From the IMG/VR virus record IMGVR_UViG_3300046616_000421, positions 1-23,012 of that record: a stretch of 23,012 nt of DNA; one strand, written 5' to 3'. Origin of the DNA: a virus. Made by a program: the position numbers and the translations under genes. Shown piece after piece: positions 4,923 to 23,012 of this stretch. The first letter of the stretch is position 1. The number at the start of each line of letters is the position of its first letter. The notes under the pieces are model-generated. The model saw only the letters and a program-made list of their open reading frames with translations, was not told where the DNA came from and did no database searches.

Positions 4923-5711
4923 ATGTCCCAGCTTGGCCAGCCCGTCCGCACCGCGCCCCGTGCCGCGGCCAACGGCACCCCGCAGTTCGCGTTCAGCCCC
5001 GCCAGCAAGGCCGGACGCAAGGCCCGCCTGTCCATCCAGGGCCTGTCCGGCTCCGGCAAGACCTGGACCGGCCTCGGCATCTGCCACGGCCTGTCCGAAG
5101 GCAAGCGGTTCGCCGTCATCGACACCGAGAAGGGAGCCGCCAGCCTCTACGCCGGAATCGGCGGCATCCAGTTCGACACCCTCGCCATGGACCGCTACGA
5201 CCCCCGCGACCTCGCCCGCGCCCTCGACGCTGCCGCACAGGCCGGATACCCGACCGTGTTCGTCGACTCCCTCTCCCACTTCTGGAAGGGCACCGACGGC
5301 ACCCTCGACCAGGTCGAGAAGGCCAGCAGCCGGTACGGCGGCAACAAGTTCGCCGGGTGGAAAGACGGCACCCCCATGCAGAACGACATGGTCGCCGCGA
5401 TCCTCGCCTACCCCGGCCACGTCGTCGCCTCGATGCGCTCCTACACCGAGTGGGTGCTGGAGAACGGCAAGCCGAAGCAGGTCGGCACCCGGCCCGAGCA
5501 GCGCAAGGGCATCGAGTACGAGTTCGACGTCGCCGTCGCGATGGACATCGACAACACGCTCGAAGTCCTCAAGTCCCGCTGCCCCGCGCTGAACCGCAAG
5601 GTCATCCAGCGCCCGCAGGGGGCCCGCGACATCGCCGGTCCGCTCCTCACCTGGCTGAACACCGAGCCGGAAGCTCAGCCCGCACCCGCACCGGCACCCG
5701 AGCAGCAGTAG
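4923..5711 (+). CDS. Sak4-like RecA-fold ATPase (recombination)
   Basis: A 262-residue AAA/RecA-fold ATPase. Walker A is GLSGSGKT (residues 40-47), a FAVIDTEKG strand follows at about 63-71, and Walker B is TVFVDSLS at 111-118. Size, motifs and position match phage Sak4-type single-strand annealing ATPases, which work beside an exonuclease. The C-terminus is a Pro/Ala/Glu tail (APAPAPEQQ), as found in partners of single-strand binding proteins. The ribosome binding site AGGAGAA overlaps the stop codon of the exonuclease gene, so the two are probably translated together. No separate Ssb or RecT gene is seen in the window. Confidence 0.85.
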   Translation: MSQLGQPVRTAPRAAANGTPQFAFSPASKAGRKARLSIQGLSGSGKTWTGLGICHGLSEGKRFAVIDTEKGAASLYAGIGGIQFDTLAMDRYDPRDLARALDAAAQAGYPTVFVDSLSHFWKGTDGTLDQVEKASSRYGGNKFAGWKDGTPMQNDMVAAILAYPGHVVASMRSYTEWVLENGKPKQVGTRPEQRKGIEYEFDVAVAMDIDNTLEVLKSRCPALNRKVIQRPQGARDIAGPLLTWLNTEPEAQPAPAPAPEQQ

Positions 5712-7533: not shown

Positions 7534-7818
7534 TCAGGTCGAGTCGGCGGCCATGACGCCGTCGTACAGCTCGGTGTAGTGCGCCTGGAACGTGCGCGCG
7601 ACCGACGTGTCCTCCTCGAAGACCAAGCGCAGATGGGCCACGAGATCGGCGTGCGCGAGCGCCTCGTTGTGCCGCTTGACGGAGATGAGGACGGCCTGCG
7701 GCTTGTCGCGACGAGTGAGCACGAAGTCGACGTTCAACAGCCGGGCTTCGGCGATGACGTCGGTCATGTTGGCGCGGGCGTCGGAGACGCCAATCTCGCG
7801 GAACTCCCTCTCGCTCAT
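7534..7818 (-). CDS. Phd/YefM-type antitoxin (no toxin partner seen)
   Basis: A 94-residue protein from ATG 7818. The N-terminus has the Phd/YefM pattern: a short strand (IGVSDARANMTDVIAEAR), then FVLTRRDKPQAVLISVKRH, the usual DNA-binding and dimerisation half of these antitoxins. The C-terminal helical tail would normally neutralise a toxin of the Doc or YoeB type. No toxin gene follows: the frame runs into a convergent terminator. An upstream GTG at 7833 is possible, but a -10-like TATCCT lies inside that extension. It is divergent from the replication gene at 7979 and could act as a repressor. Confidence 0.78.
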   Translation of the reverse strand: MSEREFREIGVSDARANMTDVIAEARLLNVDFVLTRRDKPQAVLISVKRHNEALAHADLVAHLRLVFEEDTSVARTFQAHYTELYDGVMAADST

Positions 7819-7831
7819 GCGACCAGGATAC

Positions 7832-7869
7832 ACAACAGCCCTGTTGTAATCCCCGACGCGTTGTACAAT
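7832..7869. promoter_or_regulatory. Divergent operator region with two palindromes
   Basis: ACAACAG-CC-CTGTTGT (7832-7847) is a perfect dyad, and TTGTACAA (7861-7868) is a second palindrome. GTTGTA occurs at 7843 and again 17 bases later at 7860. TACAAT (7864-7869) is a reasonable -10 for rightward transcription, though its -35 is weak. Leftward, TATCCT (complement of 7824-7829) ends 6 bases before the antitoxin ATG. Phd-type antitoxins commonly bind such palindromes and repress their own promoter. Confidence 0.55.
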
Positions 7870-7978: not shown

Positions 7979-8905
7979 ATGCCAAGCCGGTTCGAGTTCG
8001 AGCGCGCGATCAGGCGCAGTGACCTGCCGCCTCTGGCGCGGCTCATTGCGCTGACGATCGCGACCTGGGCCGACGCCGAGACCGGCTCCATCTCCCGCAA
8101 GAACCAGCCCGCCCAGTCCGTCCTGTTGGAGGCGACCGGAATGTCGAAGTCATCGTTCCTGACGCACCGCAAGACGCTGCTCGAACAGGGCTGGCTGGAG
8201 TGTGAGTCCCCGGACCGCATCAAGGCCCAAAAGGAACATGCCCAGAATGTCTACTCCATCCTCATTCCGGACGGTAAGGCTGGGTCGGGAGGCGACCTAG
8301 CTAATTCCGGCAAACGACCCGGAAAGCGACGCGAACCTAGGTCGGGAGACGACCTAGCCCTAGGTCGCGAGGCGACCCAGCCAAAAGGGACAGAACCCGC
8401 TAAGTCCGGATCGAACCTAGGTCGCCAGGCGACCACAAGAGTCTTTCCTTCTACTACTCCCTCCTCTCCTGCAAGCGAGAGCGAGCAGGCAGGCAACGAG
8501 GAACGGATCCCCCGGGCCTTCGACTACTGCCAGCCGCTCATCCAGGCGATGACAGACGCGGGACTCACCGTCTCCTGGCAGATGAGTGCCGACGACTGGC
8601 AGTCCGTCGCTCGAATCCAGCAGCGAGCCGGAGTCGCGGAGATGGTCCGGTTCGCCCGCGGCGCCAAGTCCCGCACGCCGATCCGCTTCGCGACCTTCTA
8701 CCTGCGGGCCGGCTGGCTCGGCCTTCCGCCCATGAGCACGAAGCCCAGTACCGAGCCGAAGCACCTCCGCGTCTTGCCCGACTGGTGCAAGGACCCGGAC
8801 TGCGACGAGAAGACCCGCTACCGCCAGCGCGAGGACGACGACGGCCTCCGCTCGCTCTACCCCTGCCCCGACTGCCACCCCGACCGTAAGGACTCCGCAG
8901 CGTGA
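7979..8905 (+). CDS. Helix-turn-helix replication initiator (lambda O-like layout)
   Basis: A 308-residue protein from ATG 7979; the ribosome binding site is weak (GAGAAGAG, 7963-7970). Residues about 1-92 look like a winged-helix domain (RSDLPPLARLIALTIATWAD, SVLLEATGMSKSSFLTHRK). Residues 98-175 are a low-complexity linker rich in Gly, Ser, Arg and Pro. A helical C-terminal domain (about 175-250) and a zinc motif (Cys270, Cys275, Cys296, Cys299) follow. This matches phage initiators that bind origin iterons and recruit helicase. The linker DNA holds four iterons, and the DnaB-like gene follows by GTGA overlap. The role is inferred from domain order and context. Confidence 0.82.
   Translation: MPSRFEFERAIRRSDLPPLARLIALTIATWADAETGSISRKNQPAQSVLLEATGMSKSSFLTHRKTLLEQGWLECESPDRIKAQKEHAQNVYSILIPDGKAGSGGDLANSGKRPGKRREPRSGDDLALGREATQPKGTEPAKSGSNLGRQATTRVFPSTTPSSPASESEQAGNEERIPRAFDYCQPLIQAMTDAGLTVSWQMSADDWQSVARIQQRAGVAEMVRFARGAKSRTPIRFATFYLRAGWLGLPPMSTKPSTEPKHLRVLPDWCKDPDCDEKTRYRQREDDDGLRSLYPCPDCHPDRKDSAA
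8280..8437 (+). repeat. Four origin-like iterons inside the initiator gene
   Basis: Four 21-bp dyad units start at 8280, 8337, 8360 and 8417, so the spacings are 57, 23 and 57. Each has a left arm CTAGGTCG, a 5-base centre and a right arm CGACCTAG. The second unit is perfect; the others carry one to four changes, mainly in one arm. Units 1 and 2 are read as SGGDLA and SGDDLA, while units 3 and 4 are read one frame over as LGREATQ and LGRQATT. DNA, not protein, is therefore conserved. The position in the linker of an initiator gene is that of the lambda origin in gene O. Confidence 0.82.
8441..8471 (+). other. Pyrimidine-rich tract beside the iterons (candidate unwinding site)
   Basis: Just after the fourth iteron, nearly every base on the plus strand is C or T, with clusters such as CTTTCCTTC and CCTCCTCTCCT. 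Its GC content is visibly lower than its surroundings. Such asymmetric, lower-stability tracts beside iterons often mark where origin DNA opens. This is inferred from position only. Confidence 0.4.
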
Positions 8906-10269
8906 ACGACTTCGAACAGCCCGACGACGTCGAGCGCATGCCGCCGTGCGACCTCGGCGCCGAACAAGCCGTGCTCGGCAGCATGCTGCTCTCGCAGGGC
9001 GTGATTGACCGCATGATCGGCATCGTCGAGCCGGCTGCCTTCTATCGCCCCTCGCACACCACGATCTTCAGTGCGATCACCGACCTGTACGGCCGCAGCC
9101 GCAACCCCAAGATCGACCCGATCACCGTCGGAGCGGAACTCAACCGCCTCGGCGACCTCGCCAAGGTCGGCGGCAGCGACTACCTACACCACCTCGTTGC
9201 CGCCGTACCGTCCACCAGCCACGCCGAGCGATACGCCGAGATCGTCCGCGACAAGGCCCTGCTCCGCGCCGTCATCGAAACCTCGACCCGAGCCGCGGCC
9301 CGCGCCTACGCCCAGCAGGACGAAGCCACCGAGATCCTCGACGACGCCATGGCCGAGTTCCAGGGCGCCGCCACCGGCGCCTCCCCGCTCGAAGTGAAGC
9401 TCTCCGTCGGCGACCGATGGGCCACCTTCCTCGACGAGCTGGAAGCCGGCAAGGACCCCAACGCCCTCGATACGCCGTGGCACGACGTCAACGAAGTCGT
9501 CGAACTCAAGCCTGGCCAGCTGGTCACCGTCGGCGCCGCAACCGGCGGAGGCAAATCCCTGTTCGGCATGAACCTCGCCGCGCACGTCGCGATCCGGCGC
9601 AACCGGCCCGCCCTTGTCGCCTCCATGGAGATGGGCGGTAGCGAGCTCATGGCCCGCCTCACCGCCGCTGAGGCGAGTGTCGACCTCGACCGGCTCGTCC
9701 GTCGCAAGCTCAACGACCACGACTGGGCCAAGGTCATCAAGGTTTCGGACCGGATGCAGAACGCCGCCAACTTCATCCTCGACGACTCCCCGAACCTCAC
9801 CCTCTCCAAGATCCGTGCCCGGCTCCGCTGGATGGCCGGACACGGCAACCCGGCCGCCATCGTCGTCGCCGACTACCTCCAACTCATGACCCCCGAAGGC
9901 TCTGGCAGCAACGCCAACCGGGCGCAGGAAGTCGCCACCATCAGCCGCGGACTGAAGCTCATGGCGATGGAGTTCGAGATCCCCATCGTCGCCCTCGCTC
10001 AGTTCAACCGCGGCGCCGTCGGCAGGCAGCCCCTCGTAACCGACTTCAAGGACTCATCGGCGATCGAGCAGGACTCCAACGTGATCCTCCTGATGCACAC
10101 GCCGCCCGCACCGGACCCGGACCTGCCCGTCAGCGAACGCGCCCCCGACCGCACTGGCGAGATCGACGTGATCGTCGCGAAGAACCGCAACGGCATCTCG
10201 GGTCGCATCGTGACCCTCGCCTTCCAAGGCCACTACGGCCGCCTTCAGTCCCTCGGCCGCGACCTCTGA
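8902..10269 (+). CDS. dnaB: Replicative DNA helicase, DnaB family
   Basis: A 455-residue protein from GTG 8902 (GTGA overlap with the initiator). The N-terminal domain carries the DnaB signature (PPCDLGAEQAVLGSMLL, residues 14-30). The RecA-fold motor has Walker A GAATGGGKS (211-219), Walker B AIVVADYLQL (319-328), motif H3 LAQFNRG (365-371) and the DFKDSSAIEQDSNVI segment (381-395). An NRNG sequence near the C-terminus fits the arginine-finger region. It forms a hexamer that unwinds the fork; here it would be loaded by the upstream initiator. No separate loader or primase gene is visible, so those may come from the host. Confidence 0.95.
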   Translation: MNDFEQPDDVERMPPCDLGAEQAVLGSMLLSQGVIDRMIGIVEPAAFYRPSHTTIFSAITDLYGRSRNPKIDPITVGAELNRLGDLAKVGGSDYLHHLVAAVPSTSHAERYAEIVRDKALLRAVIETSTRAAARAYAQQDEATEILDDAMAEFQGAATGASPLEVKLSVGDRWATFLDELEAGKDPNALDTPWHDVNEVVELKPGQLVTVGAATGGGKSLFGMNLAAHVAIRRNRPALVASMEMGGSELMARLTAAEASVDLDRLVRRKLNDHDWAKVIKVSDRMQNAANFILDDSPNLTLSKIRARLRWMAGHGNPAAIVVADYLQLMTPEGSGSNANRAQEVATISRGLKLMAMEFEIPIVALAQFNRGAVGRQPLVTDFKDSSAIEQDSNVILLMHTPPAPDPDLPVSERAPDRTGEIDVIVAKNRNGISGRIVTLAFQGHYGRLQSLGRDL

Positions 10270-10556: not shown

Positions 10557-10843
10557 CCGAGCTCAGCGTCGAAGACATTGCCGAACTCCGGAAAGACCCC
10601 GCCAGCTTCCGCGACTACCTCCGCCACGTCACCGGCCGCGCAGTCGTCGAGCCCAAGCCGGCCGAGACCGCAGCCCCCGTCGAGCCTGGCTACCGGATCG
10701 CCCACACCGGCGGCTGGCCCATCGGCACCACCGCCACCGGCCCCACCCCGACGCACGGCCGCTGCACCTGCCCGCAGTGCGAGCAGGCCGCCGTCGTCGC
10801 ACTGCCCCGACCGCACCAGATCCAGGAAGGAGAAGCCGCGTGA
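10553..10843 (+). CDS. Small hypothetical protein with a CPQC knuckle
   Basis: A 96-residue protein coupled to the gene before it (ATGA) and after it (GTGA). The N-terminus is a short helical domain (SVEDIAELRKDPASFRDYLRH). The middle is Pro/Ala/Thr-rich and unstructured. A C-terminal CTCPQCEQ could be half of a zinc site. I do not recognise a family. Confidence 0.68.
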   Translation: MTELSVEDIAELRKDPASFRDYLRHVTGRAVVEPKPAETAAPVEPGYRIAHTGGWPIGTTATGPTPTHGRCTCPQCEQAAVVALPRPHQIQEGEAA

Positions 10844-11861
10844 CGAACCTCAGCCTCTGCTCCGGCTACGGCGGCCTCGATCTTGCCGTCGAGCAGATCA
10901 CCGGCAACAAGACGTTGGTCTACGCCGAGAACGACAAGTACGCCGCCCAGGTCATGGCCGCCCGCTTCCCGTGGGCCACCAACCTCGGCGACATCAGCAA
11001 GACCAACTGGGCCGACGTCGCCCAGCAGTACCAGATCGAAACACTCGCCGCCGGCTTCCCCTGCCAGGGGCTCTCCAACGCCGGCCTCCGGAAAGGACTC
11101 CTCGATGCCCGCTCGGCGCTCTGGAAGAACGTTGCTGAAGCTGTTCGCGTCATTCGACCTCGCCTCGTCTTCCTGGAAAACGTGGCGGCGATCCGGTCGG
11201 GGGCCTCGACGAAGTCGTCGCCGACCTGGCCTCGATCGGGTATGACGCGCGATGGACTTGTGTACGAGCTGGAGACCCGTCCGTCGGCGCGCCGCACCCG
11301 CGCGACCGCTGGTTCCTCGTCGCCTATCCCGCTGCTCAAGACCCCGACAGCGCAGCTTGGCGTGAACGGTGGACCGCAGCATCCGGACAAGCGGAAGGCC
11401 GGGGGGCACGGGCCGACCTTGGAGGACGAGGTGGTGTTCCTGTTCTCGCCGCCGCCGGCGGCATAGCGCTCCTGCCCACCCCGAAGGCCAGCGACGGGCC
11501 GAACGGCGGCCCAAACCAGCGTGACGGGCAGGGCAACTACTACCTGCCCGGCATGGCGGTGCGCCTCGGGCAGGACTGGGTCGGTACGAACGGCTCCGAC
11601 TACGGGCCGGCCATCCGGCGCTGGGAGGCCGCCACCGGCCGACCCGCACCCTTGCCGACCGAGCCCGGCGAGCGCACCAGCCGACGCCTCAACCCGCTGT
11701 TCGTCGAATGGCTCATGGGCCTGCCTGAGGGCTGGGTCACCGGCCTCAGCCTGCCCCGCGCCCAGCAGCTCAAGATCCTCGGCAACGGCGTCGTCACCCG
11801 CCAGGCCGTCGAGGGCTACCGCCGGCTCCTCACCGCCGACCTCGCCGCGATGGCCGCGTGA
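10840..11861 (+). pseudogene. C5-cytosine DNA methyltransferase split by a -1 frame change
   Basis: The first part (GTG 10840, open to 11466) has the C5-methyltransferase motifs SGYGGLDLA, GFPCQGLSN (catalytic Cys75) and LVFLENVAAI (ENV). After about residue 120 this frame turns to nonsense. The -1 frame takes over at a run of five G (11199-11203) and continues without a stop to 11861. It encodes GLDEVVADLASIGYDARW, the motif VIII-like PHPRDRWFLVA and a proper C-terminal motif LKILGNGVV. A joined product would be about 340 residues, normal for the family. Explanations are a one-base deletion, a sequencing error, or slippage from GGG to GGG at the G run. If real, the enzyme would methylate element DNA, perhaps against host restriction. 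Confidence 0.8.
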
Positions 11862-17248: not shown

Positions 17249-17659
17249 TCAGTGCGGCAGAACCTCGTCGAGGTAGGCCTGCACCTTGTCGTACAGCGGG
17301 TACGGCACGTAGTCGGTGATCTCCGAGTGGGCGACCCAGGCGACCGCGTCCAGCTCCTCGGCATCCGCGACCCGGGCCTCGCCCTCGATGACCGTCGCCG
17401 CCGTGTACGACATCAGCCGGCCCGTGTTCGGGTGGATGCGCTCACCTAGCAACCGGATCGCCTTCACGGTCAGCCCGGTCTCCTCGAGCGTCTCCCGCAC
17501 GGCCGCGTCCTCCGCGCCCTCGCCGGGCTCGATGGCGCCCGCGGGGAACTGCCAGCTGAGCTTCCCCTCCTTGACGGCGCGGCGCACCATGAGCACCTTG
17601 CCGTCCTGGACGATGATCGCGGCGGAGATGCCCGGCTTCTCGGTGATGGTCTCGGTCAT
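17249..17659 (-). CDS. Nudix hydrolase
   Basis: A 136-residue protein from ATG 17659, coupled to the upstream gene (ATGA at 17656-17659). Residues 41-63 are a full Nudix box: Gly41, Glu47, Arg55-Glu56, Glu59-Glu60 and Gly62. Length and strand pattern fit a MutT-type hydrolase of nucleoside-diphosphate-linked compounds. Longer upstream starts would run into the preceding gene. Its substrate cannot be told from sequence. Coupling to a second Nudix protein and position next to transfer-type genes recall the Nudix immunity factor (Pif) of pSAM2. Confidence 0.88.
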   Translation of the reverse strand: MTETITEKPGISAAIIVQDGKVLMVRRAVKEGKLSWQFPAGAIEPGEGAEDAAVRETLEETGLTVKAIRLLGERIHPNTGRLMSYTAATVIEGEARVADAEELDAVAWVAHSEITDYVPYPLYDKVQAYLDEVLPH

Positions 17660-18294
17660 ACGGTGGCCTCCAAGGCTTCCAGGATCGGCGGGTAGATGCG
17701 GTCTTCGGGGATGTAGCGGGCGAGCTCCGTTATCGGGGCCCACGCCACGGCGACGTTCTCGGAGGAATCCCCATTGATCGCCTCGCCGTGCACGAAATCG
17801 CAGAGAAAGTAATCGCAGTAAGCGCGCGTCACGGGATGCAGTCGTTCACCCAGATGCTCGCGGACCATGCAGTGCACGCCCGTCTCGTCCAGCGTCTCCC
17901 GGACCGCGACCTTCGTAGCCGACCCGCCCGGCTTCACGATGCCGGCCGGGAACTGCCAGGTCATGTCGCTGCCGTCCTGCCTGCAGACGAGGAGCACCTT
18001 GTCCTCGCGTCGCACCACGGCGATGGCCACACGCAGCGCCTGCGCCGCCGTCTGACTTTCCGGTGGGCGCGCGAGGTGAATGAACCGCCGACGCACCGCA
18101 TCACCTGCCCTCTCGTATGCCAAGTCGAGGATCTGCTGTACCTCGGTCCGGTGCACCATTTCCGGGCTGGAATGCCAGCGGGTAATGGTGCGCGCGGAAA
18201 TGCCGAGGTGTTCGGCGAATCCGTCGTTCGTCATTCGTAGCGCCTCCTGGAGGAGGCACGCTGTCCGGCCGGTCCATGTACCGACGACGTCCAC
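17656..18294 (-). CDS. HTH-Nudix fusion protein
   Basis: A 212-residue protein from GTG 18294, preceded by GGGAG. Residues about 6-60 are a helix-turn-helix domain of the WTGRTACLLQEALR type seen in Streptomyces regulators (FAEHLGISARTITRWHSSPE). Residues about 88-205 are a Nudix domain with box 118-140. Here Gly124 replaces the first Glu of the box and Asp136 replaces a catalytic-site Glu, while Arg132, Glu133, Glu137 and Gly139 remain. Catalysis may be weak, so a ligand-sensing repressor role is possible. It is coupled to the intact Nudix gene downstream. Confidence 0.85.
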   Translation of the reverse strand: MDVVGTWTGRTACLLQEALRMTNDGFAEHLGISARTITRWHSSPEMVHRTEVQQILDLAYERAGDAVRRRFIHLARPPESQTAAQALRVAIAVVRREDKVLLVCRQDGSDMTWQFPAGIVKPGGSATKVAVRETLDETGVHCMVREHLGERLHPVTRAYCDYFLCDFVHGEAINGDSSENVAVAWAPITELARYIPEDRIYPPILEALEATV

Positions 18295-21973: not shown

Positions 21974-23012
21974 GTGACCGCCACATCCGTCGAGAAGGTC
22001 AACGGCACGCCGAAGACCTCGCCCGAGCCGCGGTTTGACCCGCGCGCGCTGGCCGAGGCGGAGGCGATCCGTACCCGAGCCGCCGCCGAAGCCGAGGCCC
22101 TGCGCACCGAAGCGGCGGGCAAGGCTGAGGCCGAGAAGATCCTCGCCGCGGAGAAGGCCGAGAAGGAGCGCATCGCCAACGAGCGCGCCGCCATGCGGCT
22201 GGAGAAGGAGCAGGCCGACCACCAGGCGTACCTCGCCAAGAAGAACGCCGAGACCGCCAAGTCCAACACCGAGAAGGAGAAGGCCAACAAGGCCGCCGCC
22301 GAGAAGGAGGCGGCCGAAGCGAAGAGGGACGCCGAGCAGCAGCGAACCGAGCTGTGGTGGAAGTGGGGTGCCCGCGGCATCTACGCCGTCGGCCTGGTCA
22401 TCGCCGCGCCGGTGCAGTTCATGCACTTCTGGGACCGGGCCCGCCCGTTCCTGATCGCGGCGCCTGCGCTCCTCGAAGGCCTCGCCCTCGTGTTGGCGTT
22501 CGGCGCCGCCTGGGCGGTCGCGCACCGCCGGGATGTCGCCCCGTACCGGGTCGGCATCATGCTTGGCGCCGTGATCGCCGCCGGCATCAACATGTACGGC
22601 GGTCTGTCCGATCCGCGGATCGGTTTCAACGCCGGCCTGATCGGCGCTATCGCCTCCCTTGGCGGGCCGATCGTGCTGATGGCCTACGAGCACGGCATCG
22701 CCCAGAAGGCGGACGGGATCCCGTCGTGGCGGGAGCGGCGCAGCGCTGAGAAGGTCGCGGAGGCGGAGGCCGCCGTTGTCGAGCAGGCGCGCCTGGAGAA
22801 GGAAGCGGCCGAGACGGCCGCGGCGGCCGAGAAGAAGGCTGCGCAGGAGCGCGCCGAGGAGGAGCAGCGGCGCCGCGACGATGACCGCCGTGAGGGTCAC
22901 CCGGAGATCTGGAAGACCGCCGAGGCGATGCGTTCCGCTCGCGGCTCGCAGTACGTCACGGAGCAGATCTGGGCCGAGGCCTGGTACCGCAAGACGGGCT
23001 CGAAGTTGGTCG
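21974..23012 (+). CDS. SpdB-like plasmid-spread membrane protein (3' end missing)
   Basis: The frame is open from GTG 21974 to the window edge (346 codons seen), with AAAGGA at 21957-21962. Residues about 25-125 are an Ala/Glu/Lys coiled coil. Four hydrophobic segments follow: about 134-152, 157-184, 192-210 and 217-238. They contain RPFLIAAPALLEG, AAGINMYGG and GGPIVLMAYEHG, then a PSWRERR motif. A second charged coiled coil follows. This order and these motifs match SpdB-type spread proteins of Streptomyces plasmids and AICEs, which help element transfer between mycelial compartments. The DNA translocase that would normally accompany it is not in the window. Confidence 0.8.
   Translation, partial: MTATSVEKVNGTPKTSPEPRFDPRALAEAEAIRTRAAAEAEALRTEAAGKAEAEKILAAEKAEKERIANERAAMRLEKEQADHQAYLAKKNAETAKSNTEKEKANKAAAEKEAAEAKRDAEQQRTELWWKWGARGIYAVGLVIAAPVQFMHFWDRARPFLIAAPALLEGLALVLAFGAAWAVAHRRDVAPYRVGIMLGAVIAAGINMYGGLSDPRIGFNAGLIGAIASLGGPIVLMAYEHGIAQKADGIPSWRERRSAEKVAEAEAAVVEQARLEKEAAETAAAAEKKAAQERAEEEQRRRDDDRREGHPEIWKTAEAMRSARGSQYVTEQIWAEAWYRKTGSKLV

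Follow-up and report, generated by a model that had tools for sequence, protein, structure and literature searches.

A probable phage replication origin inside its own initiator gene, with dyads that track the winged-helix domain

Replication origins located inside initiator genes are already known from lambda O, SPP1 gene 38, TP901-1 and pSK41. The DNA analysed here, an IMG/VR virus record of 23,012 bases (this whole stretch is referred to as the window), carries a cluster of short dyads inside a replication initiator gene, and the question is what these repeats are for: are they an origin, the operators of a repressor, the site of some other process, or simply the DNA of a repetitive peptide? 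We consider it very probable that the array is a theta-type phage replication origin embedded in the coding sequence for its own initiator, whose N-terminal domain would bind it and whose C-terminal domain would recruit the DnaB-type helicase.

The array consists of four 21-bp dyads at 8280-8437 with the consensus CTRG-GTCG-N5-CGAC-CYAG, and the start-to-start distances between them are 57, 23 and 57 (Table 1). The fourth dyad retains an intact 15-bp core and has lost its right outer arm; in most relatives, too, the final copy ends in ACA. The core, GGTCGNNAGNCGACC, occurs exactly four times in the 23-kb window, always within the array, and at one mismatch or fewer a shuffled sequence gives a mean of 0.6 matches. 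Dyads 1 and 2 (offsets 304 and 361, both 1 modulo 3) encode the peptides SGGDLA and SGDDLA, while dyads 3 and 4 (offsets 384 and 441, both 0 modulo 3) encode LGREATQ and LGRQATT. The third codon frame is empty because CTAG would there create an in-frame TAG stop; CTAG would likewise be a stop at the right arm of the frame-0 copies, which therefore have CCAG or ACA in its place. When synonymous codons were shuffled with the protein held fixed, none of 200 shuffles matched the score of the observed array. A preliminary description of the locus had reported four dyads in the linker-coding part of the gene, read in two frames to give unrelated peptides, and both statements are borne out by the coordinates and offsets. 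The repeat sequences were not found in the text of the openly accessible papers searched.

Table 1. Features of the initiator locus, given as positions in the window.
Feature	Position	Strand	Basis or remark
Replication initiator gene, 308 aa	7979..8905	+	PHROG 391 and PHROG 270
N-terminal winged helix-turn-helix domain, coding part (residues 1-100)	7979..8278	+	AlphaFold2 pLDDT 80-92
Recognition helix, residues 57-70 (KSSFLTHRKTLLEQ)	8147..8188	+	Helix 57-70 in the AlphaFold2 model
Ser58 codon	8150-8152	+	Column 58 is the sole separator of GTCG and GTCA phages
Dyad 1, CTGGGTCGGGAGGCGACCTAG	8280..8300	+	Codon frame 1
Predicted disordered linker, coding part (residues 103-173)	8285..8497	+	pLDDT < 50
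Dyad 2, CTAGGTCGGGAGACGACCTAG	8337..8357	+	Codon frame 1
Dyad 3, CTAGGTCGCGAGGCGACCCAG	8360..8380	+	Codon frame 0
Dyad 4, CTAGGTCGCCAGGCGACCACA	8417..8437	+	Codon frame 0; right outer arm changed to ACA
Candidate unwinding tract, ACAAGAGT and pyrimidine-rich run	8435..8470	+	Lowest stability of any 36-mer in the gene
C-terminal domain, coding part; cysteine pairs near the end (CKDPDC...CPDC)	8510..8902	+	Swapped between relatives
DnaB-type replicative helicase gene	8902..10269	+	Pfam DnaB 1.5e-29, DnaB_C 1.9e-57; PHROG 19 6e-96

The protein encoded around the array can be assigned to replication initiators through modest PHROG matches, to family 391 ('replication initiation O-like', 1e-7) and family 270 ('replication initiation protein', 1e-5). 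Pfam gave no match to it at 1e-3, its N-terminal domain did not reach the Pfam threshold for HTH_36 (PF13730), a tblastn search of GenBank phages and PLSDB plasmids returned no match, and a profile search of solved structures returned no useful one. In the AlphaFold2 model the winged-helix N-domain is confident, the segment 103-173 is disordered and the C-terminal domain is less certain; the best matches among solved folds are N-domains of plasmid initiators, including a Rep-DNA complex, and these are weak (E about 0.1). Nearly all of the dyad array falls in the part coding for the predicted disordered linker. Since nothing but a flexible linker is encoded by the array, one sequence can serve both as DNA sites and as protein code, and two frames are usable.

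Relatives found through their protein carry an array at the equivalent place (L003-L010, L012, L194, L198, L224, L226, L227, L228 and L230), and nearly all long-linker relatives do so, with a few weak cases. In L003-L009, L012, L198, L224, L226, L228 and L230 the arrays comprise 3-8 dyads and were matched by no synonymous shuffle (0/200 or 0/100); L227 is marginal at 8/100. No full-length homologue was found that has the linker and no trace of an array, dyads being visible by eye even in the three protein-found relatives that did not pass the shuffle test (L013, L225 and L229). The distant winged-helix matches from Streptomyces (L199-L212) have no array in the stretches examined, which are 99-136 residues in length and without a long linker. 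Where the window, L003, L004, L005 and L155 share a residue, 158 of 159 codons (99%) inside the dyads are the same, compared with 1106 of 1693 (65%) elsewhere in the gene; two further groups gave 138/138 inside and 839/1083 outside, and 86/86 inside and 290/403 outside. The proposal that selection acts on the DNA is thus upheld by the alignment of homologues, in which the repeat is kept as DNA while the peptide varies.

Another set of relatives (L019, L022, L028, L032, L103, L155 and L245) was first found by the DNA pattern, so that the presence of an array in them is not independent evidence, whereas their proteins are independent. A two-copy pattern search of genome contigs yielded many unrelated dyads, and only L103, L155, L171, L125 and L173 were used; the unrelated dyads included a repeated Cryobacterium element and chance repeats. 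Two other repeats stand out. A dispersed dyad pair, GAGGGGTCGCAAATCGACC followed by AAGGTCGATTTGCGACCCCTC 32 bp apart, occurs in many copies in L062, L063, L071, L075, L109, L167 and others (mostly Cryobacterium) and has the appearance of a small mobile or REP-type element. In Streptomyces chromosomes (L069, L080, L101, L113 and others), TGGTCGACAATCGACC is found repeatedly in pairs with a distance of about 22-27 bp, possibly the operators of a chromosomal regulator.

The array adjoins an easily melted stretch. The candidate unwinding tract ranks first for instability in the window gene, none of 200 synonymous shuffles being equally unstable, and is about half G+C, hence only moderately A+T-rich. 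Directly after the last dyad, ACAAGAGT is present in 14 of the 15 relatives compared and ACAAGAAT in the remaining one, and in 15 of 15 genes tested the stretch following the array ranks among the least stable 3% of the gene. The array itself is restricted to this place: across eight phage records (410 kb) the exact core has 4-6 copies per record, every one in the initiator-gene array, and a reversed control pattern has no match in the same records. The GTCA form described below is likewise confined in four records, with one stray copy. GC skew across the window has no clear sign change at the array and is uninformative.

Within the 21-bp frame, the outer bases, CTRG and CYAG, are mostly kept among relatives; changes in the inner four bases are symmetrical and extend to all or almost all copies within one gene, the forms encountered being GTCG, GTCA, GGCA, GGGC, GCTC and TCCC. 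In 18 proteins, Ser58 accompanies GTCG (10 of 10) and Gly58 accompanies GTCA (8 of 8), and within the N-domain no column other than 58, which was picked after the data had been seen, divides the two classes. A tree from which the recognition helix was left out calls for about three switches between Ser58 and Gly58, at least two of which are forced by well-supported branches, with a warning from the tree program of long branches meeting. Two pairs of relatives bring this down to close comparison. L028 and L230 resemble each other closely in protein and in linker DNA, yet six of their six dyads differ, GTCG in the former and GTCA in the latter; the change alters the encoded peptides as a side effect (SGDD/SGAD and GRETT/GQELT), and the recognition helices read AKSSFLTYRGHL and AKGTFLTHRKTL, respectively. 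Between L022 and L245, the helix differs at residues 58 and 62 only; position 62 was rejected as the specificity switch because Thr62 is found with both GTCG and GTCA. L028, L103, L019/L022/L032 and L198 have different C-terminal domains behind arrays of the same kind.

As judged from these comparisons, the dyad sequence tracks the N-terminal winged-helix domain and not the swapped C-terminal domain. This association is new in the present analysis, and the built-in, co-varying sites are the most interesting part of the system. A stepwise change in the specificity of initiator and origin is an old question, since one change alone should be harmful, and the pairs L028/L230 and L022/L245 provide a direct test of the two changing in step. 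A broader proposition, on which we are evenly divided, is that phage initiators of this broad winged-helix type carry their own cognate sites, so that public sequence would amount to a collection of self-labelled protein-DNA recognition pairs, and that in this branch Ser58/Gly58 alone would determine a single base pair in each half-site throughout the array, which would follow every switch as a whole. If this is true, array-wide Ser58/Gly58 switching would stop related replicons from using each other's origins.

Similar arrays are found beyond the immediate relatives. An HTH_36 (PF13730) match is present in L030, L038, L041, L045, L046, L050, L054, L125 and L173, and HTH_36 proteins have the PHROG replication-initiation families 391/270 in common with the window initiator. 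Arrays of GGTCG-N5-CGACC lie inside HTH_36 phage initiators, among them L125 from Metaclostridioides and those of many environmental phages. Some of these arrays use all three codon frames; L173, for example, has seven such dyads (one with a mismatch) at 5290-5418, distributed over all three. As in the window, the initiators of L038, L054, L125 and L173 combine a winged-helix N-domain with linker-coded arrays of this type, but their helices and flanks are different. Among named phages with related initiators, SfV, phiPYB5 and Aeromonas 56 carry arrays of other half-sites at the equivalent place that no shuffle reached, SP120 passes the dyad test weakly, and r1t, LASTA, Parlo, YeP1, Vibrio 1.147, BpsM61 and Javan73 do not pass it. 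An in-gene origin therefore looks like a common habit of winged-helix/HTH_36-type phage initiators.

The closest known systems share features with the window and also differ from it. The origins of lambda and Stx phages have iterons in the middle of gene O, four in lambda and six in Stx, beside an AT-rich tract (PMC7466680). Repeats in the middle of the initiator gene and an adjoining easily melted tract are present here as well, and the likeness to lambda put forward in the preliminary description holds for the layout, which comprises a winged-helix N-domain, dyads in the linker part, the melting tract and a replication gene. It does not extend to membership of the lambda O family, for which Pfam gave no match at 1e-3, the resemblance being that of the PHROG 'O-like' label; the site is another one, and its copies occur in two frames with long, unequal spacing. 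The same description had correctly placed a DnaB-type helicase gene next to the initiator, and a related gene (62-86% identity) has this position in L003-L005 and L155, but to see lambda's arrangement in it was mistaken: the gene after lambda O is P, which encodes a helicase loader, and here it is the helicase itself.

In SPP1, gp38 binds sites in its own gene, oriL, which functions with the DnaB-family helicase gp40 and an AT-rich unwinding element (PMC6316719). The window shares with it the sites inside the initiator's own gene, a DnaB-family helicase and a candidate unwinding element; the repeats of SPP1 are direct ones, and it has in addition the loader gp39 and oriR as a second origin, whereas the repeats here are dyads, no loader was seen, and the records searched contained no further cluster. 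The replisome organizers ORF13 of TP901-1 and Rep2009 of Tuc2009 also bind origins inside their cognate genes (PMC8965321), but these belong to lactococcal phages and the regions are rich in direct repeats. The RepA_N initiator of pSK41 has four Rep boxes centrally in rep, bound by its N-domain, and the central part encoded by the origin is a linker dispensable for replication (PMC5703833). The central position of the boxes is the same in the window, and N-domains of plasmid initiators are its best solved-fold matches; pSK41, however, is a plasmid whose initiator belongs to the RepA_N family and has a primase-interacting C-domain, and the window initiator has no Pfam match to the RepA_N domain and weak fold similarity to it (E about 0.1).

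From these precedents we infer binding, strand opening, helicase loading and use as an origin. The N-terminal winged-helix domain would bind the 21-bp dyads, probably as one dimer on each dyad, and its recognition helix would read the four inner bases (GTCG). With several dyads occupied, the adjacent tract at 8435-8470 would come under strain, and the C-terminal domain would recruit the DnaB-type helicase, the product of the gene that follows.

The competing explanation that fares best, while improbable, holds that the dyads are operators, through which the winged-helix protein represses or tunes the transcription of its own operon and at which no replication starts. A fold search does liken the winged-helix domains to MarR/ArsR-type repressors, and autoregulation may coexist with origin function; against this, the arrays are located some 300-500 bp into the coding sequence, a conserved low-stability tract lies behind them, and across eight phage records every exact copy is in the initiator gene. 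The family label in PHROG, moreover, is replication initiation, and the short winged-helix relatives that are without a linker are also without an array. Very unlikely, and more so than operators, is that the array serves another process or protein, such as packaging, site-specific recombination or a host factor. Any of these would suit a dyad cluster confined to one place, but the site tracks the N-domain of the protein whose gene surrounds it, as far as a single residue of the helix, while the C-domain and neighbouring genes vary, and such tracking is not expected of a host factor or a terminase. That the repeats are kept for the protein, the repeated linker peptide being what matters and the DNA likeness a by-product, is scarcely credible, for although peptides such as SGDDLA recur, the same DNA yields unrelated peptides in two frames (three in distant initiators such as L173), its synonymous sites are nearly frozen, none of 200 synonymous shuffles reaches the array, and the segment it encodes is predicted to be disordered.

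With the array read as an origin, the likely origin of a Streptomyces-type phage group is narrowed to about 200 bp, and the initiator gene together with its array would be a minimal replicon that can be cloned. For initiators that carry their own sites, binding specificity would become readable from sequence alone.

Elsewhere in the window, the minus strand carries a Phd/YefM-like antitoxin gene (7534-7833) upstream of the initiator, with no obvious toxin gene adjacent. The C-5 cytosine methyltransferase gene at 10777-11466 seems shortened, as roughly the N-terminal third of the Pfam domain is matched. The gene at 21974-23011, cut by the end of the window, encodes a long protein that resembles a coiled coil, has apparent membrane segments and gives no PHROG or Pfam match. 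Two overlapping frames on the minus strand, 17249-17743 and 17656-18294, both give the impression of NUDIX hydrolases, and the second has an N-terminal part that resembles a helix-turn-helix.
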